The notes under the pieces were generated by a model, which saw only the letters and a list, made by a program, of their open reading frames with translations, did no database searches and was not told where the DNA came from. Source: Dyella jiangningensis (lineage in GTDB: Bacteria > Pseudomonadota > Gammaproteobacteria > Xanthomonadales > Rhodanobacteraceae). Taken from it: a DNA stretch of 64,000 nt. The stretch is from positions 2,108,001 to 2,172,000 of the forward strand of contig NZ_NFZS01000001.1 in assembly GCF_003264855.1 (NCBI RefSeq). The letters run 5' to 3'. Made by a program: the position numbers and the translations under genes. Of the stretch, positions 5,263 through 28,954 are shown piece after piece; the stretch's first letter is position 1; every line of letters begins with the position of its first letter.

Positions 5263-6218
5263 GCCTGCGCGGCGCAGAACGTTCGCCGGTACTGCGTCGG
5301 GGAGGTGCGGTAGGCGCGCTGGAAGTGCTGACGCAACGTGACCGGCGAACCGAGCCCGATCGCCATCGCGATGCGTTCCAATGGCAGAGGCGTGGTCTCC
5401 AGGAGGCGCTGCGCTTCGCTCAGGCGCTGCGACAGCAACCAGTCGCCGAAGCTGCTGCCGGTCAGCTGGCGGAAATGGCGGGTAAAGCTGCGACGGCTCA
5501 TCGCCGCCTTCTCCGCCATGGCATCGAGGCTGTGTTCCTGGTCGAGATGGCGCTGCACCTGTTCCAGCAGCCGCGCCATGCGACGGTCCGTCGGCGCTTC
5601 GGGCACGGGTTGTTCGATGAACTGTGCCTGCCCGCCGCGGCGGAAAGGTGGTACCACCATGCGCCTCGCAATGCTGCTGGCCATGTCCGCGCCAAACATC
5701 TGGCGCACGAGGTGCAGGCAGCAATCGATGCCGGCGGCCGCGCCGGCCGAGGTCACGATGTTGCCTTCGTCGACGTAGAGCACGTCGGCATCGACTTCCA
5801 CGTCGGGAAAACGCTTGGCCAGATCACCCGCCCAGTGCCAGTGCGTCGTGGCCTTCCTGCCATCGAGCAGGCCGGCGTGGGCCAGCACATACGCACCCAG
5901 GCAGAGACCGACGACACGCTTTCCGCGCGCGGCGACGTTCCGCAGTTGCTGCAGCAAGGCGGCAGGCGGCACTTCGTTCGAGTCGCGCCAGGACGGCACG
6001 ATCACGACGTCCGCGTGAGCGAGTTCTTCCAGTCCGTAATCCATGCCGATGGAAAAGCCGGCGGCGCTGGTGATGCGGCGGCCTTCCGCCGAGCACACGC
6101 GCAGGCGAAATGGCGAGCGGCGTTCCGGCGTCGATGACTGGAACACCGCACAGGGCACGGAGAGATGAAAAGGCAGGATGCCTTCGAAGGCGACGACGGC
6201 GATACGGATGCGACGCAT
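5259..6218 (-). CDS. GlxA-family AraC-type transcriptional regulator
   Basis: A 319-residue regulator that joins an N-terminal DJ-1/PfpI (class I glutamine amidotransferase-like) domain, including VVGLCLGAYVLAHAG with the nucleophile-elbow Cys, to a C-terminal AraC double helix-turn-helix (SRRSFTRHFRQLTG and LGSPVTLRQHFQRAY). The ATG at 6218 was preferred over the 33-residue longer frame because MRRIRIAVVAFEG is the normal DJ-1 domain start. It is divergent from the isochorismatase-like cysteine hydrolase at 6333, its probable target, with about 114 bp of shared promoter space. Confidence 0.92.
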   Translation of the reverse strand: MRRIRIAVVAFEGILPFHLSVPCAVFQSSTPERRSPFRLRVCSAEGRRITSAAGFSIGMDYGLEELAHADVVIVPSWRDSNEVPPAALLQQLRNVAARGKRVVGLCLGAYVLAHAGLLDGRKATTHWHWAGDLAKRFPDVEVDADVLYVDEGNIVTSAGAAAGIDCCLHLVRQMFGADMASSIARRMVVPPFRRGGQAQFIEQPVPEAPTDRRMARLLEQVQRHLDQEHSLDAMAEKAAMSRRSFTRHFRQLTGSSFGDWLLSQRLSEAQRLLETTPLPLERIAMAIGLGSPVTLRQHFQRAYRTSPTQYRRTFCAAQA

Positions 6219-6332
6219 GGCAAGAAATCCCGGTGGCCCGATTGCATCGATAATTGTCCTTCGGGCCACTCGTGTGCAAGTGCCCGGCGGCGCACCATGC
6301 ACGCCATCCAAACTCACGCAAGGAGCTGTGCC

Positions 6333-6974
6333 ATGGCTGTCTCTCCCCGCCGCGCGCTGATCGTGGTCGACGTGCAGAACGAATATTTCACCGGCAACCT
6401 GCAGATCGAATATCCGCCGTCCTCCGGTTCGCTCGCCAACATCGCGAAGATCATGGACGCCGCCACGGCGGCCGGTATCCCGGTGGTCGTGATCCAGCAG
6501 GATTCACCGGCCAGCGCGCCCGCGTTCGCCGTGGGCAGTCATGGCTGGCAGTTGCACGACGAAGTCGCCAGGCGCCATCGCGACGCGCTGTTCAACAAGC
6601 CGCTGCCCAGCGCCTTCAGCGAGACCGGCCTGGCCGCATGGCTGGAAGCGCAGGGCGTCGACACCGTCACCGTGGTGGGCTACATGACCCATAACTGCAA
6701 CGACACCACCATCAAGCACGCATTCGATCGTGGCCTGGCGGTGGAGTTCGTGCACGACGCCTCGGGCGCGGTCTCGTATGCCAACCGTGCCGGCTATGCC
6801 AGCGCCGAGGAAATCCATCGCGTGTTCAGCGTGGTCGAGCACTCGCGCTTCGCGGCCGTGCTGAGCACGGAGGAATGGATGCATGCGCTGGCGACGGGCG
6901 CCGTGCCGGAGCGTGGCGACATCATCAGCTCCTATCGGGCCGCGCAGGCACGCAAGACGTCAGTGGCCGCCTGA
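6333..6974 (+). CDS. Isochorismatase-family cysteine hydrolase
   Basis: A 213-residue cytoplasmic hydrolase with the family triad Asp13 (LIVVDVQNEY), Lys89 (NKPLPSAF) and Cys122 (MTHNCND). Family members hydrolyse amides such as nicotinamide or N-carbamoyl compounds, or isochorismate; the substrate here cannot be deduced. The ATG at 6333 has AAGGAG at good spacing, and an upstream in-frame extension into the divergent promoter was rejected. Its 3' end overlaps that of aat by 15 bp. The divergent GlxA-type regulator is the likely controller. Confidence 0.92.
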   Translation: MAVSPRRALIVVDVQNEYFTGNLQIEYPPSSGSLANIAKIMDAATAAGIPVVVIQQDSPASAPAFAVGSHGWQLHDEVARRHRDALFNKPLPSAFSETGLAAWLEAQGVDTVTVVGYMTHNCNDTTIKHAFDRGLAVEFVHDASGAVSYANRAGYASAEEIHRVFSVVEHSRFAAVLSTEEWMHALATGAVPERGDIISSYRAAQARKTSVAA

Positions 6975-7691
6975 GGGAGCGATCTGGGCCAGCGGCGTGA
7001 ATTCCCTCCACAGGCCCGGCTGTCCGGGCAGGTGGGCCAGCTGGCTCACGGTGCGCAGGAACTGCGGGCGCGGGTATTCCACCGCGCCCAACTGCAGCAA
7101 ATGCGCATTGGTGACCTGCGCATCGATCCAGGGGAAGTCCCACCGGCGCAGCAGTTGCGCGAGGGCGGTGAGCGCGACGCGCGAACCGCCGCTCTCGCGG
7201 CTGAACATCGACTCACCGCAGAACAGGCGGCCAACCGCGATGCCATAGATGCCGCCGACCAACCGCTCTTGCTCCCACACCTCCACGCTGTGCGCATGCC
7301 CGAGCAGGTGCAGGCGCGTATAGGCATCGACCATGGCAGGCACGATCCAGGTCCCGCTCTGGCCGGGCCGGGGCGCGGCGCAGGCCTTCACGACGTCGCC
7401 GAAGGCGTGATCCACCGTGATGCGCCATGACACCTGTGCGAGACGACGGCGCAGGCTTCGGTTGGGTTTCAATGCGGCGGTATGGAAAACGCAGCGCGGA
7501 TCAGGCGACCACCACAGCAGCGGCTCGTCTTCGTTGAACCAGGGAAAGATGCCCTGCGCATACGCCGCCAGCAGGCGGCGCGGTGACAAGTCGCCGCCGA
7601 AGGCGAGCAGGCCGTTGGGCTCGTCCAGTGCCTTGCGCGGGTCGGGAAAATGCTCCGGCTTGGCCGTATCGAGCAGGGGCAGTCGAATCAT
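6960..7691 (-). CDS. aat: Leucyl/phenylalanyl-tRNA--protein transferase
   Basis: Aat transfers Leu or Phe from aminoacyl-tRNA to N-terminal Arg or Lys of proteins, creating N-end-rule degrons for ClpS/ClpAP in the cytoplasm. The 243-residue product has the conserved N-terminal blocks FPDPRKALDEPNGLLAFGGDLS and YAQGIFPWFNEDEPLLWWSPDPR, plus GGIYGIAVGRLFCGESMFS, all diagnostic of the family. Length is normal. The start at 7691 (MIRLPLLD) is favoured over a 15-residue longer frame because it matches the usual N-terminus. It converges on the cysteine hydrolase gene, overlapping its last 15 bp. Confidence 0.97.
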   Translation of the reverse strand: MIRLPLLDTAKPEHFPDPRKALDEPNGLLAFGGDLSPRRLLAAYAQGIFPWFNEDEPLLWWSPDPRCVFHTAALKPNRSLRRRLAQVSWRITVDHAFGDVVKACAAPRPGQSGTWIVPAMVDAYTRLHLLGHAHSVEVWEQERLVGGIYGIAVGRLFCGESMFSRESGGSRVALTALAQLLRRWDFPWIDAQVTNAHLLQLGAVEYPRPQFLRTVSQLAHLPGQPGLWREFTPLAQIAPSGGH

Positions 7692-7794
7692 GGCGCCTGG
7701 ATATTCGGTAAGGCGAAGCCGGGAAGAGAGGTACATGCTACCGGCATGGGGATGTGGTTAGCATGTTCCACCCTTGCAGCCCCCGGAAATTGGC

Positions 7795-9198
7795 ATGCGC
7801 TGTCGCGACTTGTGTTGGATGGTGTTGTTCGCTCCGGCGGCGATGGCGTCCTCGCCTGCCATGGATCCGGCGCTGGCCGGCCGCATCGACGCCGACGCGC
7901 AAGCGGTGCTGCAGCGAACCGGTACGCCGGGCGCCACCCTGGCCGTCTATCGGGATGGCGTGCCTCTCTATGTCCATGCCTATGGCCTGAGCGACCGGGA
8001 GCGAAAGACACCAGCCGCCGCGTCGACCCGCTACGAAATCGGCTCGATCACCAAGCAATTCACAGCCGCCGCGATCCTGCAGCTGCAGGAGGCCGGCAAG
8101 CTTGATATCCATGCCACGCTGGCCACGTACCTCCCCGATGCGCCGCATGCGAAGGAAGTGACGCTGATACAGCTGCTTTCCCATACCAGCGGCATGCCGG
8201 AATACCTCGACGGCGACGACGTGGAGACGTGGGCGGTCAAGCCGGCGACGTTCGCGCAGATCATGGCGCGCATCAAGGATCGTCCGCTGGATTTCCCGCC
8301 CGGCACGCGGTGGTCCTATTCCAACAGCGGTTATGTGCTGCTCGGCCGGGTGATCGAGGTGGCGTCGCACGAGTCGTACGAGCACTACGTGAGGACGCAC
8401 TTGCTGGCGAAGGCGGGCATGGGCCAGACGATCACGGTCGCGGAGGAGGCGCGCGCGCCGGCCATGGCGAAGGGCTACCGACATACGAATGGCAAGCTCG
8501 AGGCTGCGCCGACCATCCATGCCACCGTGGGCTGGGCCGCCGGCAATCTCGTATCCACCGTGGCGGACCTCGAACGCTGGAACATGGCGCTGCAGGGCGG
8601 AAAGATCGTCAGCCCCGCGGATTACGCGCTGATGGCGACGCCGGCGACGGGAAGTACCGACTACGGACTGGGGCTGTTCGTCGATACGCTCGACGAACAG
8701 CCGCGCGTCGGCCATACCGGCGGTTCGTTCGGCTTCACCACGTCGAACCAGTATTTCCCGAAGCAGGGCATCCAGATCATCGCGTTCACCAACGTGGGCG
8801 ACAATCCGGAGCCGGGCCAGATGCTGGTGTCCGCCACGTTCGAGGCGCTGTACCCGGACATCGCCGCGGCCGCGCGCAAGCCGGCGGCCGGCGAGAACAC
8901 CGCAACGACGGAGGCGGTGCGCAAGGCCTTCGCAAGGTTGCAGGGCAGGGGCGCCGATCTTTCCATGTTCGATGCGAGATTGAAGGCGAAGATGGGCGAC
9001 GGCCTTTCCGAGCGCATGGCCAGGCAGTTGTCGCCGTTCGGCGAGCCGTCGTCCTTCATCTACAAGGGCCAGCGTCCGGACAAGGAAAAGAACAGGACGT
9101 GGAACGATTACCGGATCGAGTTCGGCCCCGGCAACAGTCTTCCCTTCGGCGTGGAGCTGGATGCCGAAGGCAAGGTCGCGGGCATTTCCGTCGGCTGA
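7795..9198 (+). CDS. Secreted serine hydrolase, class C beta-lactamase/esterase fold
   Basis: A 467-residue penicillin-binding-protein-like serine hydrolase (Beta-lactamase family, PF00144). The active-site S-x-x-K is visible as GSITKQF near residue 82, the second motif Y-x-N as WSYSNSGYVLLG near residue 175, and the third as HTGG near residue 305. The N-terminus has a short hydrophobic signal-like segment (MRCRDLCWMVLFAPAAMA) when starting at the ATG at 7795; a TTG at 7774 is possible. A C-terminal extension of about 110 residues follows the catalytic domain. Likely periplasmic esterase or peptidase rather than a true beta-lactamase. Confidence 0.9.
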   Translation: MRCRDLCWMVLFAPAAMASSPAMDPALAGRIDADAQAVLQRTGTPGATLAVYRDGVPLYVHAYGLSDRERKTPAAASTRYEIGSITKQFTAAAILQLQEAGKLDIHATLATYLPDAPHAKEVTLIQLLSHTSGMPEYLDGDDVETWAVKPATFAQIMARIKDRPLDFPPGTRWSYSNSGYVLLGRVIEVASHESYEHYVRTHLLAKAGMGQTITVAEEARAPAMAKGYRHTNGKLEAAPTIHATVGWAAGNLVSTVADLERWNMALQGGKIVSPADYALMATPATGSTDYGLGLFVDTLDEQPRVGHTGGSFGFTTSNQYFPKQGIQIIAFTNVGDNPEPGQMLVSATFEALYPDIAAAARKPAAGENTATTEAVRKAFARLQGRGADLSMFDARLKAKMGDGLSERMARQLSPFGEPSSFIYKGQRPDKEKNRTWNDYRIEFGPGNSLPFGVELDAEGKVAGISVG

Positions 9199-17094: not shown

Positions 17095-20000
17095 TTATTC
17101 CGCGGCCCTGGAGCGGTTGCGCCCGTCGTGCTTCGCCCGGTAGAGCGCACTGTCCGCACGCGACAGCCACTGCGAGAGCGATTCGCCTTCCTGGTAAGCC
17201 GCCACGCCGATGCTGATGGTGACGACAATGGCCTCGCCCTCGTGCTCGAACGGGGCGCCGGCGATGCTGCCGCGGATGCATTCGGCGATGACCATGCCCT
17301 GCGTCAATCCGGTGTTGGGCAGGCAGATCACCAGCTCCTCGCCGCCATAGCGCCCGACCAGGTCGACACCGCGGCACTGCATGCGCATCGCGTGGGCCAC
17401 ATGGTGGATCACCGCGTCGCCCACCAGATGGCCATACGTATCGTTGATGGCCTTGAAGCCATCGAGATCGAGCAGCGCGATGCAGGCTTCGCCTTCGCGC
17501 GACTCCTTTCTCACTTCCTCGGCGAGTTCGAAGAAGCGTCGACGGTTCAATGCGCCGGTCAGCGAATCGGTGCTGGCCAGCTCGTCCAGCCGCTGGTTGG
17601 CGATCAGCAGATCCTGCGTGCGCAGATCCACCTGTTGCTGCAGCTGCTGCGCCTGGCGGCGCAGGTACAGCGTGCGCAGCTGGGTCACCAGGTAGAGCAG
17701 CGCGAGCAGCAGCGCGCCGAAGCCGACCAGGGCGGCGATGGTTTCGTACCAGCGCGGCTCGATGCCGACCGCCAGCGCGCTTTCGATCACGCGCGGCTGC
17801 ATGCCATGGGTCTGCGCGCGCAGCCGCAGCACATAGTCGCCGTGCGGAAGATTGGTATAGATGGCCGTGGGCTGGCTGCCGCGGGGGATGGTGATCCAGT
17901 CTTCGTCCAGCCCGTCGAGGCGATAGCTGTAGGTCGTGTCTGCGGTCGCCTGGAAATCGAGCAGCGCGAAGTCCACGCGCAGGCTGCGGTTGTGCGCGGT
18001 GAGATGGAACGATTCGCCGGGACGCGGCAGCCGTCCGAACGGAAGCGGGTTGCCATTGATCGCCGCCTGCGTGACCGCGAGCGGCGCATCGGTGGATTCG
18101 GGCGGCTGCCAGTCCGGCCGCAATATGGTCAGTCCGCCCAAACCGCCGAACAGCAGTTCGCCGTCGGGTGCGCGCGCCGCGGCGGCGTATACATAGCTGG
18201 CGACATGCAGGCCGTCGCGCGCGCCCAGGTTGTGCACGGCATGGGTGTTGCCGTCGATCATCGAGATGCCGTTCGGCAGGCTGACCCACAGGTTGCCCTG
18301 GTCGTCGGACAGTGCGGCGTTGATGTTGTCGCTGGTCAGTCCGTTGCTGGTGTCGAAGCGCCGGAAGCGATAGGGCTCGCCGCCCGTGTGCGGCTCCAGC
18401 ATGGCGAGGCCGCCGTACGTGCCGATCCAGCGATTGCCCTGCGGATCGGTGGTGACCGAGCTGGCGAGGTTGTTGGGCAGGCTGGTCGGGTCGTCGGGGC
18501 GATTGAGCAGGTTCTCGAAGTTGCGATCCTGCGCGCCATTGGCCGCGATGCTGATGCCGCGGCCGGTCACGTACCAGACCTGGCTGCCGACTCGCGTGAT
18601 CAGTCGCACGGTGTCGCTGGCAAGGCTGCGCGGGTCGTTGGGGTCGTTGCCGAAGTGGGTCAGGGCGCGCGTGCGCAGGTCGTAGCGGTAGACCCCGTCA
18701 TAGGTGGCCACCAGCAGGCGCTCGCCATCGGGCATCAGGTGCAGGACCGGCGAAGCCTCCAGCGCCGGCACGACCGAACTCTGGATCTGGAACGTCGCCG
18801 GGTCCACTCGCGCCAAGCCCTGCGTGCCGACCCAGATCGCCCCGTCATGTGCTTCGGCGAAAGCCTGCACGTCGCGCCGCGTCTGGTCACCGTCCAGGTG
18901 AAGGTGGCGGATCATGCCGTGATCGAGGTCGATGACGTCGATGTTTCCCGCATTCATGCCGAGCCAGATGCGTCGGCGCGAATCGACGAAGATGGTGCGC
19001 ACGTTCGAGCTGGCGAGCGCGCGCCCGTCGTGCGTGGAGGGCAGCAGGGTGAAGGCCTTGCGCGCGCCGGCGTTGCTGCGTGCGACGCCCAGGTCGGTGG
19101 CGGCCCAGATGTTGCCCGAGCGATCGCGCATGAGCGCGCGCACGGCGTCGCCGGGCAGGGAGGAGGGCATGGCGGTGTCGTGGGTGATCGCGCGCAGCGT
19201 CCCGTCGCTGGGCGTATAGGCCAGCACGCCGTTGCCGTCGGTGGCCAGCCACAGCGTGTCCGGATCCACTTCGACGAAGTCACGCACCGTGGCGCGTCGT
19301 TCGCGATTCGGCTGCAACCCGCTGAAGCCCACGACCGGATGCCAGTGCTCGTCGGCATCGCGATAGACGGCGCCGGCCTTCGTGCTGCCCACCCACAGGC
19401 GCCCGGTGCGGTCCTCGTCCAGCGCCCAGATGCCATCGTCGAGCACGGCGTCCACGGCGGCGTTGCCCGAGGGGCGTGGCGCGCGTTCGAACGCGTGCGT
19501 GCCGCGCCGCCTGACGAACAGGCCGTTGTTGTTGCCCAGCCACAGATTGCCCGCGCGATCTTGCAGGATGCTGAAGTTGCGCGGCGATGTGTCGGCCCCG
19601 GTGGGTACGACGACGATCTGGTTGGTGCGCAGGTCGAGATGGTCCAGGCCGCGCTCGCCCGCGATCCACACACCGTCGTTGCCGTCGCGCGCGAGCGCAT
19701 AGATCTTGCGCGAACTGGTGCCGCCCTTGCCGACCGGGTACGTGTGGAAAGCGTTGCGCAGGGGATCGAAGCGGCTCAATCCACCCGAGTTCGTGGCCAC
19801 CAGCAGCCCGCCATCCGGCAGGGCCAGCAGGGCGCGCACGTAGGTGTCCGGAAGATCGGCCTTGGGGCCGCCAGTCGCGGTGAACACCTGCATGCGGTAG
19901 CCGTCGTATCGCACCAGGCCGCTCTGCGTGCCGATCCATACGAGCCCGCGCTGGTCCTGCGCGAGCGCCGTCGTCAGCGAATGCGGCAGCCCATCGTTGA

Positions 20001-20214
20001 CACCGACCCGGTCGAACCAGGGCATGTCGAACGGCGACCACGGATCCTCGGCGGCATGCGCGCGGGGCGATAGTCCTGCGAACAGCAGGAGCAGCCAGCA
20101 GCAGCGGAGGAGCCGGCTCAGCGGCGTGGCCATTGGCGACGGGGACATGCGCGCGGCAAGCACCTGCCGCATGCGGGCGCGTGGTCCGGGACGGCAGCTC
20201 GCTTGTATCGCCAT
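17095..20214 (-). CDS. Two-component-like sensor diguanylate cyclase (Reg_prop/Y_Y_Y/GGDEF)
   Basis: A very large (up to 1039 residues) membrane signalling protein. An N-terminal signal segment is followed by many WIGTQSGLVRYDG-type beta-propeller blades (Reg_prop repeats, roughly residues 60-750) and a Y_Y_Y domain (YSYRLDGLDEDWITIP). One transmembrane helix near residue 850, a coiled coil and a C-terminal GGDEF domain with RYGGEELVICLPNTG then follow. The active-site GGEEL is intact, so it should synthesise c-di-GMP in response to a periplasmic ligand. The start is uncertain: ATGs at 20214, 20172, 20148 and 20133 are in frame, and the last gives the most compact signal peptide. Confidence 0.92.
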   Translation of the reverse strand: MAIQASCRPGPRARMRQVLAARMSPSPMATPLSRLLRCCWLLLLFAGLSPRAHAAEDPWSPFDMPWFDRVGVNDGLPHSLTTALAQDQRGLVWIGTQSGLVRYDGYRMQVFTATGGPKADLPDTYVRALLALPDGGLLVATNSGGLSRFDPLRNAFHTYPVGKGGTSSRKIYALARDGNDGVWIAGERGLDHLDLRTNQIVVVPTGADTSPRNFSILQDRAGNLWLGNNNGLFVRRRGTHAFERAPRPSGNAAVDAVLDDGIWALDEDRTGRLWVGSTKAGAVYRDADEHWHPVVGFSGLQPNRERRATVRDFVEVDPDTLWLATDGNGVLAYTPSDGTLRAITHDTAMPSSLPGDAVRALMRDRSGNIWAATDLGVARSNAGARKAFTLLPSTHDGRALASSNVRTIFVDSRRRIWLGMNAGNIDVIDLDHGMIRHLHLDGDQTRRDVQAFAEAHDGAIWVGTQGLARVDPATFQIQSSVVPALEASPVLHLMPDGERLLVATYDGVYRYDLRTRALTHFGNDPNDPRSLASDTVRLITRVGSQVWYVTGRGISIAANGAQDRNFENLLNRPDDPTSLPNNLASSVTTDPQGNRWIGTYGGLAMLEPHTGGEPYRFRRFDTSNGLTSDNINAALSDDQGNLWVSLPNGISMIDGNTHAVHNLGARDGLHVASYVYAAAARAPDGELLFGGLGGLTILRPDWQPPESTDAPLAVTQAAINGNPLPFGRLPRPGESFHLTAHNRSLRVDFALLDFQATADTTYSYRLDGLDEDWITIPRGSQPTAIYTNLPHGDYVLRLRAQTHGMQPRVIESALAVGIEPRWYETIAALVGFGALLLALLYLVTQLRTLYLRRQAQQLQQQVDLRTQDLLIANQRLDELASTDSLTGALNRRRFFELAEEVRKESREGEACIALLDLDGFKAINDTYGHLVGDAVIHHVAHAMRMQCRGVDLVGRYGGEELVICLPNTGLTQGMVIAECIRGSIAGAPFEHEGEAIVVTISIGVAAYQEGESLSQWLSRADSALYRAKHDGRNRSRAAE

Positions 20215-20411: not shown

Positions 20412-21074
20412 ATGCGGCTGTTGATCGTCGAGGATTCGCCCACGCTGGGGCCGGACTTGCGCATTGCGCTGACCCGCGATGGCCATGCGGTCGACCTCGC
20501 CGTCGATGGCGCCCAGGCGCTCGCGTTCGTGGCCTCCTATGCGTATGACGTGGTGGTGCTCGACCTGATGCTGCCCAAGGTGGATGGCTGGTCGGTGCTG
20601 CAGCGGATCCGCCAGGGCGAAGGCAGCCCGGGCGTGCTGGTGCTTTCCGCGCGCGACCAGGTGGCCGACCGCGTACAGGCGCTCAACCTGGGTGCCGACG
20701 ACTACCTGGTGAAGCCTTTTGCCTACGATGAACTGCTCGCGCGCGTGCTTGCCGTTTCGCGGCGCGGGCAAGCGCAGCAACCCTTGCTTCGCGCTGACGC
20801 GCTGGAGGTGGACTCACGCGCCCGCCTGGCGCGCGTCAACGGCCAGGTGCTGGCGTTGACGCCCAAGGAATATGCGTTGCTGGAGGCCCTGCTCGTGCAG
20901 CGCGGCACCGTGCTGGCGCGGGGCGAGCTGTTCGAGCGGCTGTACGACGCGCGCAGCGAAGCGTCCGACAAGGTGATCGAAGTGCTGGTGAGCACGCTGC
21001 GTGCCAAGCTGGCGCGCGCCGGCTTGCCCGAGCTGATCGAGACGAGGCGTGGATTCGGCTATGTCGTGGCGTAA
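20412..21074 (+). CDS. OmpR-family response regulator
   Basis: A 220-residue DNA-binding response regulator. The receiver domain begins MRLLIVEDSPTLGPDL, with the phosphoacceptor Asp51 in VVLDLMLPK and the conserved Lys in DDYLVKPF. The OmpR/PhoB winged helix follows (LTPKEYALLEALLVQ...DKVIEVLVSTLRAKL). The ATG at 20412 is the receiver-domain start; a longer frame upstream was rejected. The kinase gene overlaps its last 14 bp, implying translational coupling. Direct repeats upstream of the next two transcription units (22483 and 23185) are the likely DNA targets. Confidence 0.95.
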   Translation: MRLLIVEDSPTLGPDLRIALTRDGHAVDLAVDGAQALAFVASYAYDVVVLDLMLPKVDGWSVLQRIRQGEGSPGVLVLSARDQVADRVQALNLGADDYLVKPFAYDELLARVLAVSRRGQAQQPLLRADALEVDSRARLARVNGQVLALTPKEYALLEALLVQRGTVLARGELFERLYDARSEASDKVIEVLVSTLRAKLARAGLPELIETRRGFGYVVA

Positions 21075-22434
21075 CTGGCTGCTCCGATCCATCCACGGTC
21101 GCCTGCTGCTCACGCTGTGCGTCGGCCTGAGCCTGCTGATGGCGCTCATGTTCGTATCGCTCGACTACAGCATCGACCGCAAGATCTACCAGCGGCTCGA
21201 CGACGATCTGCTGCAGCGCGCGCGCGGTATCGCGGCGCTGCTGGAAACGCCGCCCACCGATGTGGCGATGGCCCGCCTGCAGACCCTGCATCCCGCCTAC
21301 GCCGGCGGTGGTCACACGGAGTACCTGCAGGTGTGGGATGCCGAGGGCCGCACCCTGGTGGTGTCCGGCAGCAACGCGGCGGGCCGTCTCGAGTTGCCGT
21401 CGGGCGTGAAAGCCAACGAGCCGCTGTTCTACGACCTCGCCTTGCCCGACGATCATCGCGGCCGCGCCGTGGCCTTGCGCCTGTTGTTCCCCGGTACGAG
21501 CACGCCGGCCACGCTGGCGGTGGCCGAGGAGCGTGAGCATGTCGACCGTTTCGAGCGCAGCGTGCATGTGGCGCTGTTGGTGGGCGTGCTCGCCACCGCG
21601 CTGTCGGCGGCACTGCTTGCCATCATCACGGTGCGACGTGGCCTGCGACCACTGCTGGCATTCGGCGAGGCGGCGCGTACGCCGGATGAAACCCCGCATC
21701 TGCCGCAGAAGCAGCTGCCGCGCGAGCTGACGCCTTTCGCCGAAGCACTCAACGGCGCCTTCGATCGCCTGCACGAAGGCATGGAGCGCGAACGGCGCTT
21801 TTCACGCGACGTGGCCCACGAATTGCGCACGCCGCTGGCCGAAATGCGCGCCGCGCTCGAAGTGGCGCAACGCGACCCCGCGCGATCGATGTCGCTGGAC
21901 AACGCCAACGCCGCGATCGACCGCATGCAACGTTGCATCGACAGCCTGCTGGCGGTCTCCAGCTACGAGTCGGGCCTGGCGCAACCGGAGCTGGAGCCGA
22001 TGGACCTGGTGCCCTTGCTGCGCCGGTCGATGGGAGCGGATGCACGGCTCGACGCGGCCTTGCCCGCGGAGGCCTGGGTGCAGTCCGATCCCGCCTTGCT
22101 GGAGCGCGTCCTCGACAACCTCATGGTCAATGCACGCGAGTACGCCGCGGTCGGCAGCCGCATCGAGGTGTCCCTGGCCAAGTCGCAGGGGCAATGGTTG
22201 TTGCGTATCGGCAATACCGCGCCCGAGCTCACGGAAGCGGACCTGCCGCATTTCGGCCAGCGTTTCTGGCGCAAGTCGCCGGCGCGCGAGGCCACGCGGC
22301 ATGGCGGCCTGGGCCTGGCGCTGGCCGGCACGCTGGCTGCCGTGCTTTCCACCGGGTTGCGCTTCGAGCTGCGCGAAGGTGTGTTGTGGGCCACGCTGGG
22401 CCCGTTGCCGGATATCGAATCGATCTCGGCCTGA
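21061..22434 (+). CDS. Sensor histidine kinase
   Basis: A 457-residue inner-membrane kinase paired with the overlapping OmpR-type regulator. Two membrane helices (about residues 10-30 and 165-190) bracket a periplasmic domain of roughly 130 residues. HAMP-like and HisKA regions follow, with the phosphorylated His253 in VAHELRTPLAEM, then a HATPase with N box DNLMVNAREYA and G box GGLGLALA. The start at 21061 (MSWRNWLLRS) gives a normal N-terminus. Gene order and the downstream metal-type RND pump suggest it senses a metal ion or envelope stress; this is inference. Confidence 0.94.
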   Translation: MSWRNWLLRSIHGRLLLTLCVGLSLLMALMFVSLDYSIDRKIYQRLDDDLLQRARGIAALLETPPTDVAMARLQTLHPAYAGGGHTEYLQVWDAEGRTLVVSGSNAAGRLELPSGVKANEPLFYDLALPDDHRGRAVALRLLFPGTSTPATLAVAEEREHVDRFERSVHVALLVGVLATALSAALLAIITVRRGLRPLLAFGEAARTPDETPHLPQKQLPRELTPFAEALNGAFDRLHEGMERERRFSRDVAHELRTPLAEMRAALEVAQRDPARSMSLDNANAAIDRMQRCIDSLLAVSSYESGLAQPELEPMDLVPLLRRSMGADARLDAALPAEAWVQSDPALLERVLDNLMVNAREYAAVGSRIEVSLAKSQGQWLLRIGNTAPELTEADLPHFGQRFWRKSPAREATRHGGLGLALAGTLAAVLSTGLRFELREGVLWATLGPLPDIESISA

Positions 22435-22482
22435 TGCCGTGTCACGACCGCGCCGTCGCAGTCGCTTGATGTGATCCCGAGT

Positions 22483-22500
22483 TTAAGCAGAACCAAAGCT
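22483..22500 (+). promoter_or_regulatory. Candidate response-regulator operator 1 (TTAAGC-N6-AAAGCT)
   Basis: TTAAGC at 22483-22488 and AAAGCT at 22495-22500 place two AAGC cores exactly 11 bp apart, the spacing used by OmpR/PhoB-type dimers. The same bases in the same spacing recur at 23185-23202. The site lies 80 bp before the cytochrome start. It also overlaps a perfect 7-bp inverted repeat, AGCTTCG-CATC-CGAAGCT (22497-22514). Confidence 0.55.
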
Positions 22501-22580
22501 TCGCATCCGAAGCTGGCCGTTGGCTGGGCATCGGGCATGTCTCGATGACCTTGCCCCGTGCCATTGTGAGAGATGTCATC

Positions 22581-23129
22581 ATGTCTGCTGCCCGTTACAC
22601 GCCATGGATGCGTCGCCTTCATTGGGCGATCGCCTGGTTCATCGTCTTCGCCCTCGTGTTGATCGAAACCAAGGGCTGGTTCCCGAAGGGCTCGACCGCG
22701 CGTACCGCGGTCAAATGGGGCCACATGCAGTTCGGCATCGCCGTGCTGCTGTTGATGGTGCCTCGCCTGCTGGTCCGCCTGCGCCATGCCGCGCCGCCGA
22801 TCACGCCCGAGCCGCCGCGTTGGCAGGCCGCGCTGGGCAAGCTCGTACATCTCGCGCTGTACCTGCTCGCTTTCGCGGTGCCGCTGCTTGGCGTATCGAT
22901 GATGTTCGTGGCCGGCAAGCCGTGGAACCTGCTGGGCCTGCCGTTGCCGGTGTCCGCCGTGCCCGATCCCGATCTCGCGCACACCCTGGAGGGCATGCAC
23001 GAGACCGTCGGCAATGTGCTGATGTGGCTCGCCATCGCCCACGTGGCCGCCGCGGTGTTCCATCACCTCGTGCAGCGCGACGACACACTGCTGCGCATGC
23101 TGCCCGCGGAGCGGAACCGCTTCCGTTGA
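22581..23129 (+). CDS. Cytochrome b561-type membrane diheme protein
   Basis: A 182-residue four-helix membrane protein of the bacterial cytochrome b561 (CybB/YceJ) family, which moves electrons between quinol and periplasmic acceptors such as superoxide. Heme-ligand-type histidines are visible in RRLHWAIAW, in WGHMQFG, in MHETVGN and in IAHVAAAVFHHL. The ATG at 22581 was chosen over an upstream in-frame ATG because it matches the family N-terminus and follows a GAGAG. It lies between the two-component genes and the RND pump, behind the first TTAAGC-N6-AAAGCT site, so it is probably part of the same stress regulon. Confidence 0.9.
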   Translation: MSAARYTPWMRRLHWAIAWFIVFALVLIETKGWFPKGSTARTAVKWGHMQFGIAVLLLMVPRLLVRLRHAAPPITPEPPRWQAALGKLVHLALYLLAFAVPLLGVSMMFVAGKPWNLLGLPLPVSAVPDPDLAHTLEGMHETVGNVLMWLAIAHVAAAVFHHLVQRDDTLLRMLPAERNRFR

Positions 23130-23184
23130 CGATGGCGCGATGCCATCGCCTGCGACGCGCTGCCGCGGCGATGGCCTGGTCGTC

Positions 23185-23202
23185 TTAAGCGGCTTCAAAG
23201 CT
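23185..23202 (+). promoter_or_regulatory. Candidate response-regulator operator 2 (TTAAGC-N6-AAAGCT)
   Basis: The same two hexamers with the same 6-bp spacer as at 22483-22500; the spacer bases differ (GGCTTC here, AGAACC there), so only the hexamers are conserved. It sits 44 bp upstream of the RND adaptor ATG and would position an OmpR-type dimer near the promoter of the efflux operon. Confidence 0.55.
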
Positions 23203-23245
23203 CGCGCTTCGGATACTCGCCAAAGAGTTGCCTTGGGAGAGTTCC

Positions 23246-24274
23246 ATGCGTCGTTGGTTGGCCGGCTTCGGGCTGGCGTCCCTGCTGGGTACGGTGGCCT
23301 GGGCGGCCGAGCCGGTGGCTGCGATATCGACGGCGCGCGTCGCCCGCGTCGATCGCATGCCGCTGAAGCCGTTGCCGGTCACCGTCAAACTTCCGCTGGA
23401 AGGAACGGCGGTGGTGGTCACGCCCCTGGGCGGCATCGCGCTCGACGTGCTGGTGCGCGAAGGCGATACGGTGAAGCGCGGCCAGGCCCTGGCGCGCCTG
23501 CAGAGCCGGGAGGCGATGACGCTAGGCGCTGAGCTGGCATCGGCGCAGGGCGCCTATCGCGTCGCCGCGGCGCAGGCGGAACGCGACCAGCAGCTGCTGA
23601 AGGAAGGCATCGTGCCGCAGGCGCGGGTGCAGGCCAGCCTTGCCTCGCGCGATGCGGCGTCGGCGCGCGTGCGCGAACTGCAGGCGGCGCGCGCCTGGGC
23701 GCCTGCAGCCACCGGCGCGGGCATGGGCGTCTACGAGTTGCGCGCACCGATCGATGGTCGCGTGGTCGAGCGTGCATTGCAGCCGGGCGGCAGCTACGAC
23801 GCGCTCGCCAAGGGCTTCGTGTTGATGGCCGGCCAGCGCGTGATGCTCGAACTGCGCGTGCCCGCGTCGCAGGCGGCACAGGTTCGTCGTGGCCAGGAAG
23901 TACGTACCCGCGAAGGTACCGTCGCGCGGGTCAGCGAAACCGGCGGTGCGCTCGACGCCGCCAGCCAGACCGTGCTGGTGCGCGCCGAAGGCGAGGCCGG
24001 CGGTCTGCTGCCCGGCATGCAGACCAGCGCCACACTCTGGTTGCCCGCAAGCTCCGACGCCGTTGCGGTACCAAACCAGGCGGTGATGGGAGAGGGCGAA
24101 TCGCTTCGCGTATTCGTGCGGTCCGCTGCGGGGTTCCGGCCGGTCGAGGTGACGCCCGTTGCCCGCGACGGCGATGCGCAACGCATCGTGCGTGGCAGCC
24201 TCAAGCCGGGCGACGAGGTGGCCACCGGCGCGCTCGATGCGCTGAACGCGCGCACGACCACGGAAGGGCCGTGA
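23246..24274 (+). CDS. RND efflux periplasmic adaptor (membrane fusion protein)
   Basis: A 342-residue exported adaptor bridging the RND permease and the outer-membrane factor. It has an N-terminal signal (MRRWLAGFGLASLLGTVAWA), a split lipoyl/barrel-sandwich motif (GGIALDVLVREGDTVKRGQALA and YELRAPIDGRVVERALQPGG), a coiled-coil hairpin between them and a C-terminal beta-barrel. It is shorter than typical CzcB and lacks its N-terminal metal-binding extension. Start ATG at 23246 follows GGGAGAG. First gene of a four-gene operon, 1 bp from the permease gene. Confidence 0.92.
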   Translation: MRRWLAGFGLASLLGTVAWAAEPVAAISTARVARVDRMPLKPLPVTVKLPLEGTAVVVTPLGGIALDVLVREGDTVKRGQALARLQSREAMTLGAELASAQGAYRVAAAQAERDQQLLKEGIVPQARVQASLASRDAASARVRELQAARAWAPAATGAGMGVYELRAPIDGRVVERALQPGGSYDALAKGFVLMAGQRVMLELRVPASQAAQVRRGQEVRTREGTVARVSETGGALDAASQTVLVRAEGEAGGLLPGMQTSATLWLPASSDAVAVPNQAVMGEGESLRVFVRSAAGFRPVEVTPVARDGDAQRIVRGSLKPGDEVATGALDALNARTTTEGP

Positions 24275-24275
24275 C

Positions 24276-27200
24276 ATGCTGCAGCGACTCATCGCGTTCT
24301 CGCTCGCGCAGCGGCTGCTGGTGCTCGTCGTGGCCGTGGGGCTGGCGGCGGCTGGCGTATGGGCTTTCCTGCGCCTGCCGATCGACGCCTATCCGAACAT
24401 CGCGCCCACCCAGGTCAAGTTGATCCTCAAGGCGCCCGGCATGACGCCGGAGGAAGTGGAAAGCCGCGTGGTCGTGCCGCTGGAAATGGAGCTGCTGGGC
24501 GTGCCCAACGCGGTGATGTTGCGCTCGACCGCCAAGTACGCCATCGCCGATATCACGCTCGATTTCCAGGAGGGCACCGACATCTACTGGGCGCGCCAGC
24601 AGGTCGCCGAGCGGTACGCGGGCGCATCGGATGCATTGCCAGGCGACGTGAGCGGCGGGCTCGCGCCGATGTCCACGCCGCTGTCGGACATGTTCATGTT
24701 CACCATCGAAGGCGGGCATCTGTCGCTCGCCGAGCGGCGCAGCCTGCTCGACTGGACCATCCGGCCCGCGCTGCGCACGATTCCCGGCGTCGCCGATCTC
24801 AACGCACTCGGCGGCGAAGTCCGCAGTTTTCTCGTGACGCCGGATCGTTCGCGGCTGTCTGCGGCGGGCCTGCATTTTCGTGACGTCGTCGATGCCATCG
24901 AACGCAACAACCGCAACGATGGCTCGGGCCGTTTGCGTGACGGCGGCGATGCGCTGATCGTGCGCGCCGCGGGCGCCATCGCCACGCTGGATGATCTGCG
25001 GCAGGTGGTGGTGACCATGCGCGGCGACGTGCCGATCCGCGTGGGCGATGTCGCCAAGGTCGGCTACGGCGCGCTGACGCGTTACGGCGCCGTCACCCGC
25101 GATGGCGAAGGCGAAGCCGTGGAAGGGCTGGTGGTCGGCCTGCGTGGCGCGGATGCCTCGCAAACCGTGTCCGCCGTGCGTGCACGGCTGGCCGAACTGC
25201 AGCGTGGCCTGCCTGCCGGCGTGCGCATCGAAACCTTCTACGACCGCAGCGGCCTGATCAAGCGCGCCGTCGGCACCGTGCAGAGCGCCCTGGTCGAAGC
25301 CAGCGTGCTGGTGGTGATCCTGCTGTTGCTGTTCCTTGGTGACGTGCGCGCGGCGCTGGTGGTCTCGGTGACCTTGCCGCTGGCTGCGCTCGGCACCTTC
25401 CTGTTGATGCACCTGGTCGGCATGAGCGCCAACCTGATGAGCCTGGGCGGCCTCGCCATCGCCATCGGCATGCTGGTCGATGCCGCCGTGGTAGTGGTGG
25501 AAAACACGGTGAGCCGCCTGTCGCCGCCGGAGCATGGCGAAGTCGCGCCGCTGCCGCGCCTGCATTGCGTCTACCGGGCTGCGCGCGAAGTCGCGGTGCC
25601 GGTCACGGCGGGCATCGTCATCATCGTGCTGGTGTTCGCGCCGCTGCTGAGCCTGCAGGGGCTGGAAGGCAAGCTGTTTGCGCCGGTGGCGCTGACCATC
25701 GTGTTTGCCCTGGCGACCTCGCTGCTGCTGTCGCTCACCGTGATCCCGGTGCTTTGCTCGCTGATCCTGCGTGAAGGCGCGCATCGCGAGCCTTGGCTGA
25801 TGCGCCAGCTCGAACGTGGCTATCGCCCGCTGCTCGACTGGTCGCTCGCGCATGGTCGCGCCATGGCGGTGATCGCCACCGTCGGCCTCGGCGTGGGCGT
25901 GGTGGCCTATCTCGGCACCGGCAAGACCTTCATGCCGACCATGGACGAAGGCGACATGCTGGTGCAACTGGTGAAGCCGGCGTCGGTCTCGCTGGAAACA
26001 TCGCGCGACCTCGACCTGAAGATCGAGCGCGCCATCAAGGCCCGGCTGCCGGAAGTGGAGCACGTGGTCGCGCGACTCGGCTCGGACGAGCTCGGCCTCG
26101 ATCCGATGGGCCTCAACGAAACCGACATGTTCCTGCAGCTGAAGCCGCGCAAGCAGTGGCGCGGCCCGGACAGCGCATGGCTGGAACAGCAGCTGCGCGA
26201 CGTGATGAGCGCGTTTCCCGAGGTCGAATACGGCTTCACCCAGCCCATCCAGATGCGCGTCTCGGAGATGCTCACAGGCAGCCGCGGCGACGTGGCGATC
26301 AAGGTGTTCGGGCCCGACCTGCAGGTGCTCAACGAACTGGCCAATTGCATCGCCGGCGTGCTGGAGCGCACGCACGGCAGCCAGGACGTGCTCGCGCAGA
26401 CGCAGGAAGGCATGCGCTATCTCGGCGTTCAGGTCGATCGCCAGGCGGTCGGTCGCTACGGGCTGGATGTCACGGCCGTGCAGGACGAACTCCGCGCCCA
26501 GCTCGAAGGAAGCCAGGCGGGCGTGGTGATCGAACAGCAGCGCCGCACGCCGATCCTCGTGCGCGGCGACGAACGTGTCGCCAACGCGCCGGAGCGCTTT
26601 GGCCAGATCAGCGTCGCACGCGGCGACGGCGGCGAGGTGCCGCTGGAACATCTCGCCAAGCTTGAAGCGACCAGCGGTCCGGTGCAGGTGCGCCGCGAGA
26701 ACGCCTCGCGCTACGCGCTGGTGCAGGCGAACGTCAGCGGGCGCGACCTGGTCGGTTTCGTCGATGAAGCGCGCGCCACGGTGGAACGCGACGTCCATCT
26801 GCCCTCGGGTTATCGCGTCAGCTGGGGCGGGCAGTTCGAGAACCAGCAGCGTGCCGCGGCGCGGCTCGGGCTGGTGGTGCCGGCCGCGATGGGCATGATT
26901 TTCCTGGTGTTGTTCTTCACCTTCGGCGCCGTGCGCGAGGCCTTGCTGATCCTCTGCAACATTCCCTTCGCCCTCGTCGGTGGCGTGGTCGCGTTGTGGG
27001 TGTCTGGCCAGTACCTGTCGGTGCCCGCGTCGGTGGGCTTCATCGCCTTGCTCGGCATCGCCGTGCTCAACGGGCTGGTGCTGGTGTCGTTCTTCAACCA
27101 GTTGCGCGAAGCCGGCATGCCGCTGCCGCAGGTCGTGCGCGAAGGCGCCTTGCGCCGGTTGCGCCCCGTGCTGATGACGGCCTCCATCACCGCGCTCGGG

Positions 27201-27347
27201 CTGGTGCCGCTGTTGTTCGCCAGCGGCCCCGGCTCCGAAGTGCAGCGTCCGCTGGCGGTGGTGGTCATCGGCGGCCTGGTGACATCCACCGCGCTGACCC
27301 TGCTGTTGCTGCCCGTGCTGTTCCGACGCTTTTGCGCCACGAGATAA
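24276..27347 (+). CDS. Heavy-metal-type RND efflux permease (CzcA/CusA family)
   Basis: A 1023-residue proton-driven inner-membrane pump with the twelve-helix, two-porter-loop layout of HME-RND proteins. The N-terminus (RLIAFSLAQRLLVL) and LPIDAYPNIAPTQV are family signatures. Helix 4 reads AIAIGMLVDAAVVVVEN, with Asp402 and Glu409; the first acidic residue of CzcA-type DFG motifs is Ala, as in CusA-type pumps. The porter segment LGLDPMGLNETDMFLQLKP instead resembles divalent-metal CzcA proteins. The substrate ion is therefore not assignable. Operon context: adaptor upstream, DUF3240 and outer-membrane factor downstream. Confidence 0.93.
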   Translation: MLQRLIAFSLAQRLLVLVVAVGLAAAGVWAFLRLPIDAYPNIAPTQVKLILKAPGMTPEEVESRVVVPLEMELLGVPNAVMLRSTAKYAIADITLDFQEGTDIYWARQQVAERYAGASDALPGDVSGGLAPMSTPLSDMFMFTIEGGHLSLAERRSLLDWTIRPALRTIPGVADLNALGGEVRSFLVTPDRSRLSAAGLHFRDVVDAIERNNRNDGSGRLRDGGDALIVRAAGAIATLDDLRQVVVTMRGDVPIRVGDVAKVGYGALTRYGAVTRDGEGEAVEGLVVGLRGADASQTVSAVRARLAELQRGLPAGVRIETFYDRSGLIKRAVGTVQSALVEASVLVVILLLLFLGDVRAALVVSVTLPLAALGTFLLMHLVGMSANLMSLGGLAIAIGMLVDAAVVVVENTVSRLSPPEHGEVAPLPRLHCVYRAAREVAVPVTAGIVIIVLVFAPLLSLQGLEGKLFAPVALTIVFALATSLLLSLTVIPVLCSLILREGAHREPWLMRQLERGYRPLLDWSLAHGRAMAVIATVGLGVGVVAYLGTGKTFMPTMDEGDMLVQLVKPASVSLETSRDLDLKIERAIKARLPEVEHVVARLGSDELGLDPMGLNETDMFLQLKPRKQWRGPDSAWLEQQLRDVMSAFPEVEYGFTQPIQMRVSEMLTGSRGDVAIKVFGPDLQVLNELANCIAGVLERTHGSQDVLAQTQEGMRYLGVQVDRQAVGRYGLDVTAVQDELRAQLEGSQAGVVIEQQRRTPILVRGDERVANAPERFGQISVARGDGGEVPLEHLAKLEATSGPVQVRRENASRYALVQANVSGRDLVGFVDEARATVERDVHLPSGYRVSWGGQFENQQRAAARLGLVVPAAMGMIFLVLFFTFGAVREALLILCNIPFALVGGVVALWVSGQYLSVPASVGFIALLGIAVLNGLVLVSFFNQLREAGMPLPQVVREGALRRLRPVLMTASITALGLVPLLFASGPGSEVQRPLAVVVIGGLVTSTALTLLLLPVLFRRFCATR

Positions 27348-27350
27348 GCC

Positions 27351-27662
27351 ATGCCGAACGAACTCAAACGATTGACCCTGGTGGCGCCGCGCGCGCTTGA
27401 AGAAGACCTCGTGTCCGTCTTGCTGGAGATGCATCCGGCCTTGCCCGGCTTCACCACGGCGCATGTCGCCGGCCATGGCGAAGGCTTCGAGCGGGCCCGG
27501 GTGGTGGAGCGGGTGCAAGGGCGCATCGACCGCGTGCTGCTGTGGCTGGTATTGCCCGCCGAGACCGTGGACCGCGTGCTGGCCCGGCTTTGCGACGTGC
27601 TGCCGCAGAGCGAAGTGGTGTGGTGGGTCGAGCCGGTGGAAACGATGGGGCGGCGGGCATGA
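27351..27662 (+). CDS. DUF3240 family protein
   Basis: A 103-residue cytoplasmic-looking protein of the DUF3240 type, a small ferredoxin-like or PII-like domain commonly found after CzcA-type pumps. Visible pattern: RLTLVAPRALEEDLVSVLLE, a GFTTAHVAGHGEG loop and RVLLWLVLPAETVDRVLARL. It starts 4 bp after the permease stop and its TGA overlaps the next ATG, so translation is coupled. A regulatory or metal-sensing role on the pump is plausible but unproven. Confidence 0.8.
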   Translation: MPNELKRLTLVAPRALEEDLVSVLLEMHPALPGFTTAHVAGHGEGFERARVVERVQGRIDRVLLWLVLPAETVDRVLARLCDVLPQSEVVWWVEPVETMGRRA

Positions 27663-28954
27663 AGCGATGCATGGCGTTTTTGCTGTTGGCCGGTTGCACC
27701 GTCGCGCACGCCGCCGACGCGGACGATCCGATGTTGCCTCCCGCCGAACTGGTGTTGAGCGCCATCGGCCATACGCCGGAGGTGCGTCGCGCCGAAGCCA
27801 ACCTGGGCATGGCCGATGCGCAGGCACGCATGCGCGCGTCCGGCAGTTACGAAGGACAGGTCACCGTGATTCCCCAGCGCCGTCGCGTGGAAGGCGACCG
27901 CACGTACAACGAGTGGGAGCTGGACGTGACGCGTTCGATCCGCCTGCCGGGCAAGGCCAGGCTGGATCGCGAGATCGGCGCCAGCGGGCGGCAGGCTGCG
28001 CAGCTTTTGCTGGAAGATGCGCACCACGCGGCTGCCCGGCGATTGTTGGCCGCATGGTCGGACTGGCAGCGGGCGAGGGTGGAGCGCGAGCAGATGCAGC
28101 AACTCGTCGACATCGCCCGCCGCGATCGCGGTGCGGTGGCGCGACGCGTGGCGCTGGGCGATGCCGCCGAACGCGAGCGTCTCGCCACCGAATCCGCCTT
28201 GGCCCAGGCGCAGGCGTCCCTGATGCGCGCGCAGTCGGCCCAGGCGCAGGCGGAGCTGGCGTGGCGCAGCGTGTTTCCCACCTTGCCGCTGCCCGGGCGC
28301 GAAGCGGGCAACGCGTATGCGCCGCCTGCGTTGCAAGGCGACGACGAGAACTGGGTCAAACAGATCGTGGCGCGCAGCCATGAAGTGGGTGCGAGCGAAG
28401 CGCTGGCGCGCCAGAAGGATGCGGAGGCACGCCGCGCACGCGCCGATCGCGTGCCCGATCCCAGCGTTGGCATCCGCATGCTCAACGACCTCGGTGGGCG
28501 CGAGCGCGCCTACGGCGTCGTGCTGGGCATCCCGCTGGGTGGCAGCTATCGACAGGCCGAAGCCGCGAGGGCGGGCGCCGACGCGCTGGCGGCCGAGGCG
28601 GATCTGGCGGTCGCGCGGCGTGATATCGAGCAGGGCGCGCGCACGGTGGTGGCCTCTGCGCGGGCCAGCCATGCCATCTGGGAAAGCCAGCGCGACGCGC
28701 TGCAGGCCGCGAGTGCGAGCGCGGCGAAGGCGGCGCGCGCCTATGCGCTCGGCGAAGCCGGTATCGCCGAACTGCTGGCCGCACGTCGTATCGAACAGGA
28801 AACAATGCTGGCCGAGCGCCAGGCCGCCATCGATGCACTGGAGGCGGTGACGCGCGTGCAGGTCGACGCGCACGCCATCTGGCATCGCCATGACGGCGAT
28901 GGCGACGAAACGCCGGCGTCCGGCATGCCGGCACTGCCCGATCTCGGGGGATGA
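27659..28954 (+). CDS. TolC-family outer-membrane efflux protein
   Basis: A 431-residue outer-membrane channel component. The ATG at 27659 overlaps the DUF3240 stop (ATGA) and begins a signal sequence with a possible lipobox (LLLAGC, residues 8-13). The rest consists of long alanine/arginine-rich amphipathic helices in two repeats (RAEANLGMADAQARMRASG and, later, EAARAGADALAAEADLAVA), as in CzcC/TolC-type factors. It completes the adaptor-permease-DUF3240-OMF operon. It is divergent in sequence from classical CzcC, so the call rests on helix pattern and context. Confidence 0.88.
   Translation: MKRCMAFLLLAGCTVAHAADADDPMLPPAELVLSAIGHTPEVRRAEANLGMADAQARMRASGSYEGQVTVIPQRRRVEGDRTYNEWELDVTRSIRLPGKARLDREIGASGRQAAQLLLEDAHHAAARRLLAAWSDWQRARVEREQMQQLVDIARRDRGAVARRVALGDAAERERLATESALAQAQASLMRAQSAQAQAELAWRSVFPTLPLPGREAGNAYAPPALQGDDENWVKQIVARSHEVGASEALARQKDAEARRARADRVPDPSVGIRMLNDLGGRERAYGVVLGIPLGGSYRQAEAARAGADALAAEADLAVARRDIEQGARTVVASARASHAIWESQRDALQAASASAAKAARAYALGEAGIAELLAARRIEQETMLAERQAAIDALEAVTRVQVDAHAIWHRHDGDGDETPASGMPALPDLGG

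Follow-up and report, generated by a model that had tools for sequence, protein, structure and literature searches.

The form described for PmrA boxes is CTTAAG-N5-XTTAAT; that of Klebsiella pbgP consists of CTTAAT and CCTAAG with five bases between them (PMC3973317, excerpted text). BqsR, an activator, has the box TTAAG-N6-TTAAG (PMC4682146, excerpted text). In Geobacter sulfurreducens, the PII-NG protein of the locus GSU2134-2137, which also encodes a CzcABC pump, is upregulated by cobalt (PMC7726332, excerpted text). For Acidithiobacillus ferrivorans, cb561 is listed with cusF, cusA, cusB and cusC in gene-organisation legends (PMC7463520, excerpted text).

The locus analyzed here is of this well-known kind and represents an ordinary type of bacterial switch; its gene set was not found described, and a search of open-licence papers returned no description of its regulator or regulon. 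It is located in the window, i.e. the whole analyzed stretch of 64,000 nucleotides, as a series of co-directed genes in the order regulator, kinase, cytochrome b561, adaptor, HME-RND pump, DUF3240 PII-like protein and outer-membrane channel. One copy of a short repeated sequence (box 1) falls between the kinase and b561 genes, and a second (box 2) between the b561 and adaptor genes. The features are the following:

20412 to 21074, plus strand: OmpR/PhoB-family response regulator, receiver and winged helix (PF00072 and PF00486 above cut-off)
21061 to 22434, plus strand: sensor histidine kinase with 2CSK_N periplasmic domain, HisKA and HATPase_c (Pfam matches)
22482 to 22499, plus strand: box 1, TTTAAGC-agaa-CCAAAGC, 11-bp direct repeat 5' of the b561 gene
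22509 to 22514, plus strand: predicted -10 hexamer GAAGCT of the b561 promoter (weak), an A2/T6 hexamer at 9-10 nt
22581 to 23129, plus strand: cytochrome b561 (PF01292, 97.9 bits, gathering score 30.1)
23184 to 23201, plus strand: box 2, CTTAAGC-ggct-TCAAAGC, 11-bp direct repeat 5' of the efflux operon
23212 to 23217, plus strand: predicted -10 hexamer GATACT of the efflux operon promoter, an A2/T6 hexamer, GATACT also in relatives
23246 to 24274, plus strand: periplasmic adaptor (MFP; TIGR01730 above cut-off; best PDB relative ZneB)
24276 to 27347, plus strand: HME-RND pump, CusA/CzcA family (TIGR00914, 1023 bits, cut-off 701)
27351 to 27662, plus strand: DUF3240 PII-like protein (PF11582, 101.6 bits, gathering score 21)
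27659 to 28954, plus strand: outer-membrane efflux channel (OEP; PF02321; order same in relatives)

The kinase gene, with its start taken from the sequence, overlaps the stop of the regulator gene. The cluster, with or without b561, is conserved in relatives, where regulator, kinase, adaptor, RND pump, PII-like protein and outer-membrane channel are all found. The b561 protein matches NF008566 below its cut-off, and the PII-like protein matches the PII-like structure 3ce8 (E 0.0006). A gene for a large diguanylate cyclase, with a Reg_prop propeller and a Y_Y_Y domain (window 17095-20214), is divergent from the regulator gene.

The regulator is a member of the OmpR/PhoB group, as both Pfam domains exceed their gathering scores; among the best 25 models listed, no curated cut-off was passed. 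Its best NCBIfam matches, cztR/silR/copR and PmrA, are both below cut-off: it reaches 182 for the TIGR01387 regulator subfamily (cut-off 279) and 177.8 bits for the PmrA (BasR) equivalog NF007928 (cut-off 330). The kinase scores 160 for the TIGR01386 subfamily (cut-off 293), and matches the cztS/silS/copS, QseC and PmrB models below cut-off. BasR/PmrA structures (8jo2, 4s04) are among the best full-length PDB matches of the regulator.

The locus resembles the CzcRS and CusRS systems in having an OmpR-type regulator and a kinase beside a CusA/CzcA-family pump, and differs from them in its subfamily scores, which are below cut-off, and in the presence of b561 and DUF3240 genes. The CusR box is an inverted repeat, whereas the box found here is a direct one. 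The locus and the PII-NG-czcABC clusters both combine a PII-like protein with a CzcABC pump; in the excerpted text on Geobacter, no adjacent regulator-kinase pair is mentioned for GSU2134-2137, and the b561 protein GSU0593 belongs to another locus (PMC7726332). The cus clusters of Acidithiobacillus ferrivorans are similar in that cytochrome b561 is listed with the pump genes, and different in that the excerpted work is a study of copper, whose excerpts describe no regulatory sites (PMC7463520).

The original prediction had placed the motif TTAAGC-N6-AAAGCT at 22483-22500 and 23185-23202, with AAGC repeated at 11 bp; both sites are found there with 0 mismatches, and the repeat is as described. 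The distances from the start codons are 80 nt (b561 ATG at 22581) and 43 nt (adaptor ATG at 23246), where 80 and 44 had been given. By comparison with relatives, the unit was refined to YTTAAGC-N4-YCAAAGC, an 11-bp direct repeat, with half-sites at 22482-22488 and 22493-22499 (box 1) and at 23184-23190 and 23195-23201 (box 2); the final T of AAAGCT is a preference only, present in ~56% of 28 sites.

Both boxes are direct repeats with an 11-bp step, as are the PmrA and BqsR operators. The likeness to the PmrA (BasR) box extends to hexamer half-sites arranged head to tail and to CTTAAG as the first half-site (PMC3973317, excerpted text), and the regulator is similar to BasR over its length. The second half-site is different, being YCAAAGC rather than TTAA-based, and so are the targets, here a metal pump and b561; the second half-site of the Klebsiella pbgP box, CCTAAG, is one base from the CCAAAG found here (PMC3973317, excerpted text). 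The box of BqsR (CarR) of Pseudomonas aeruginosa shares TTAAG-N6 followed by a second pentamer, at an 11-bp step (PMC4682146, excerpted text), while the second pentamer is CAAAG and not TTAAG at the present locus, and the targets are others. A large regulon is described for BqsR in the same text (PMC4682146), whereas only two exact sites stand out here. The half-sites are not both TTAAG-like, the second one being CAAAG in both window sites; in 24 of 30 loci TTAAG is confined to the first half-site, the 26 strict sites among them having been picked with CAAAG.

The motif TTAAGC-N6-AAAGCT occurs exactly twice in the genome (7 contigs, 4,758,053 bases), both times at this locus, and its reversed form, used as control, never. 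It is thus not common genome-wide away from promoters, a point on which the original prediction had been made to depend. Within the 64-kb window the two matches compare with a mean of 0.01 in 100 shuffles, and no further site was found at up to 2 mismatches. The looser 11-base pattern TTAAGC-N5-CAAAGC is not rarer than its control in the genome, since each gives 2 matches. When up to 2 mismatches were allowed, the pattern gave 118 matches and the reversed control 217; no enrichment beyond the two exact sites is seen, and no further regulon members are therefore recognizable in the genome by this pattern scan.

In the window, no such box was seen 5' of the regulator gene. A clade of related regulators has a CCACAGC-N4-CCAAAGC repeat ~100 bp before the regulator gene (L137, position 1578; L140, position 1651; both oriented to place the regulator on the plus strand), suggesting autoregulation there, and not in the window.

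Conservation was evaluated in 40 loci, namely those of the best 39 of 79 regulator matches (window included) and that of genome G008; five further loci (L148-L152), taken for unlinked pattern matches, are outside this set. The pattern TTAAG-N6-CAAAG, searched on both strands of the corresponding 428 kb, produced 26 matches, all of them within gaps between kinase and adaptor genes and 0 elsewhere; these gaps total 16 kb, in which 0.003 matches are expected from base composition. The motif is accordingly kept in orthologous loci of several genera, as the original prediction required, and always in this gap. The strict box is found in 20 of the 30 adaptor-bearing loci, in six of them twice. Another four (L122-L125, one genus) carry the close variant CTTAAGC-N4-CTGAAGT, and the last six (L135, L137, L138, L140, L141, L145) a looser YCAAAGC- or CCACAGC-type repeat with the same 11-bp step, recognized only after the fact. 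Two boxes are present in all six loci where b561 lies between kinase and adaptor, and one box in the other 14 strict-box loci. None of the 10 adaptor-less loci contains the strict box; in six of these the sequence runs out no more than 340 bp after the last recognized gene, and the informative ones, which extend for more than 2 kb past the kinase, are only L128, L129, L133 and L146.

Pairwise agreement among the 20 adaptor-side sites is 98% for the core (12 positions), a value largely built in since 10 of the 12 positions were fixed by the site-picking pattern, as compared with 33% for the 4-bp spacer, 31% upstream and 35% downstream. In nine more distant loci, the corresponding figures are 95%, 33%, 31% and 31%. 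The useful part of this comparison is that the surroundings are little alike while the box stays.

Twelve fixed bases found at two places 0.7 kb apart might also be produced by chance, or by a local duplication devoid of function. Within each of six genomes, the flanks of site 1 and site 2 are 15-48% identical, which rules out a recent local duplication of the box; a chance origin is ruled out by the rarity of the motif and by its position, all 26 matches in the 40 loci sharing one gap. An explanation of this type is regarded as extremely improbable.

The VSTLR recognition helix is common to related regulators whose half-sites vary. An argument based on two regulators with the helix VFGLRRKL and no box (L146, L147) was dropped, as the sequence of L147 stops 339 bp beyond the regulator gene and no adaptor gene is present in L146.

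The sequence following the boxes was inspected for -10-like hexamers, which had no part in picking the sites. A hexamer with A at its second and T at its sixth position starts 9 or 10 nt past CAAAGC at each of the 26 strict sites (20 adaptor-side, 6 b561-side), whereas pairs of offsets without 9 or 10 show one in only 0-5 of 26. On the adaptor side this hexamer is GATACT in most close relatives. All 26 sites thus have the activator-type (class II) layout, with the box at a fixed short distance 5' of the -10. The spacing to the -10 is similar for PhoB and PhoP boxes. Such a fixed -10-like element points to an activator-dependent promoter, with the putative activator bound just upstream, and it is because of this fixed distance that activation is favoured. 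Some OmpR-family regulators repress, and the boxes could in principle serve a repressor. A repressor site more often overlaps or follows the -10, whereas the strict sites, without exception, stop 9-10 nt before the -10-like hexamer; repression by the adjacent regulator is considered quite improbable.

A perfect inverted repeat, AGCTTCG-CATC-CGAAGCT (window 22497-22514), shares bases with the end of box 1 and with the -10 hexamer that follows. On visual comparison, L034 and L035 retain this repeat and L033 nearly does, but L037 and L113 do not. It is possibly a second operator.

The search was extended to 197 genomes of the family, where TTAAGC-N5-CAAAGC gave 40 matches in 30 genomes. By coordinate comparison, 21 of these (16 genomes) are no more than 3 kb away from an ortholog of the regulator. 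Matches of the reversed control sum to 44, so that it is the position of the matches, and not their number, that is non-random. The base preceding CAAAGC is C or T in all 21 linked matches, and G in 13 of the 19 unlinked ones; since, in addition, the match in G129 (L148) is contained in a long open frame spanning 5323-8856 of that locus, the idea that every family match is a regulator site was rejected. One of the 19 unlinked matches is the b561 site of G089, discussed below; for the others, the matrix scan covered L149-L151. No exact 11-base match was found within 3 kb of 40 lower-ranked regulator relatives (52-57% identical). The spacer GGCGG is common to nine of the 19 unlinked matches. Among these unlinked matches, the sequence TTAAGCGGCGGCAAAGC recurs nine times in several genera (e.g. 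G169, G092, G102, G113), away from any regulator match, and is perhaps a conserved coding stretch.

When a matrix was used instead of a pattern, scores of at least 17 were reached at none of 1.28 million shuffled-window positions (control) and at 24 of 1.36 million positions of the loci collected; these 24 are strict sites used to build the matrix, two b561 sites and four sites in pattern-chosen loci. A scan of named genomes for kinase relatives, in which scores of at least 11.5 were considered, yielded 80 loci, mostly of distant kinases; a box is located downstream of the kinase match in L213-L216, and TTAAG-N6-TTAAG sequences are found in loci of distant kinase relatives (L227, L237, L262, L283). 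Three TTTAAG-N6-CTAAGC-like sequences surround a kinase relative in a Rhodoferax genome (L245, positions 6011, 8152 and 12823, minus strand), a possible further half-site variant.

The association of the box with b561 was analyzed in 31 chosen genomes, of which 29 have regulator relatives at E <= 1e-60. In 29 of the 31, one b561 copy (the best match yielding a locus) was taken and the 500 bp preceding it were scanned; G134 and G147 gave no scanned copy. A box is present 5' of a separate b561 gene in three regulator-bearing genomes (G031, G089, G179), ~107-200 bp upstream, with scores of 17.9-23.3, and none was found 5' of the other 26 scanned copies, where scores are at most 6.1 and some copies are only distant homologues. 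In G135, one of these 26, b561 is 71% identical and located ~7 kb upstream of the regulator, without a box. The membership of b561 therefore varies by lineage. In L137 and L140, both from genus g9, the gene after that for the channel (~9.6-10.2 kb, oriented) encodes a distant homologue of b561 (28%).

Three congeners (G009, G012, G013) have no ortholog of the regulator and show CTAAGC-N5-CAAAGC before b561, with scores of 18.1, 13.4 and 4.5, respectively. Each also encodes 9-11 OmpR-type paralogs of the regulator (E <= 1e-30), up to 44% identical. The protein that actually binds the boxes could then be another OmpR-type regulator with its gene elsewhere, the adjacent one being only linked; both the similar sequence kept by these congeners and their supply of paralogs are in favour of this, and the CTAAGC-N5-CAAAGC sequence may indeed be read by another regulator. 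However, the box tracks the adjacent regulator, whose ortholog lies beside 21 of the 40 family matches, and the first half-site is altered to CTAAGC in the congeners that have no regulator, consistent with decay. A different binder is regarded as quite unlikely. In G009 (L038, 3415-4029) b561 is directly beside the GGDEF gene, and in G012 (L036, 6869-7423) it comes after genes resembling, by eye, those beyond the channel gene of the window. The neighbours of b561 in these two congeners are thus genes that border the cluster in the window. The simplest reading of the congeners is that regulator and pump genes were gained or lost around b561, whose operator would then decay.

The two boxes are most probably operators of the adjacent response regulator, activating both promoters, a reading to which a probability of about 0.87 is assigned. 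The original prediction had likewise understood them as sites of the adjacent OmpR-type regulator, and the meaning it gave to the motif is very probably right: the rarity of the motif, the common gap of the 26 matches and the -10 geometry all support it, and a direct repeat with an 11-bp step is compatible with a dimer of OmpR type. We infer from the arrangement of the sites both that the adjacent regulator is the binding protein and that it activates rather than represses. According to this model, the kinase would activate the regulator, presumably on metal or other envelope stress. The regulator would dimerise, and its two DNA-binding domains would occupy, at each promoter, half-sites lying head to tail and one helical turn apart. 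As the box sits in the -35 place, followed at 9 or 10 bp by a poor -10 hexamer, the bound regulator would recruit RNA polymerase. The b561 gene would thereby be switched on separately from the adaptor-pump-PII-channel operon.

The exported ion, like the signal, is an inference. The best solved relative of the pump is ZneA (4k0e), ahead of CusA, and the adaptor aligns to ZneB (3lnn) over residues 43-327 of 342. Methionines 573, 623 and 672 of CusA, which we take to be its copper/silver site, correspond in the pump to Q564, E615 and E664. Because of these replacements a divalent cation is favoured, and a copper/silver pump is not; the ion exported is most likely that of a divalent metal, for instance zinc, cobalt, cadmium or nickel.

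The gene for b561 is repeatedly found under the same putative operator, both inside the cluster (genera g1 and g40) and elsewhere in the genome (genera g13 and g40), and b561 may be a dedicated partner of a divalent-metal efflux system and not a bystander. That b561 has this role and, jointly, that the regulator is the founder of a subfamily reading the unequal TTAAGC/CAAAGC repeat is proposed tentatively, as a reading somewhat more likely to be wrong than right. In such a role, b561 might, under metal stress, provide electrons at the membrane or divert them.

What is new here is the conservation across genera, the fixed -10 geometry, the separate b561 loci with a box and the placement of the box beside PmrA/BqsR-type operators. 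For a regulator not found described, the analysis provides a concrete predicted operator and a minimal regulon, and predicts from sequence alone which promoters a metal-stress regulator would switch on across the family. The variation of half-sites among regulators with a common VSTLR helix would be useful for studying how DNA is read, and the recurring inclusion of b561 offers a testable link between metal efflux and electron transfer at the membrane.
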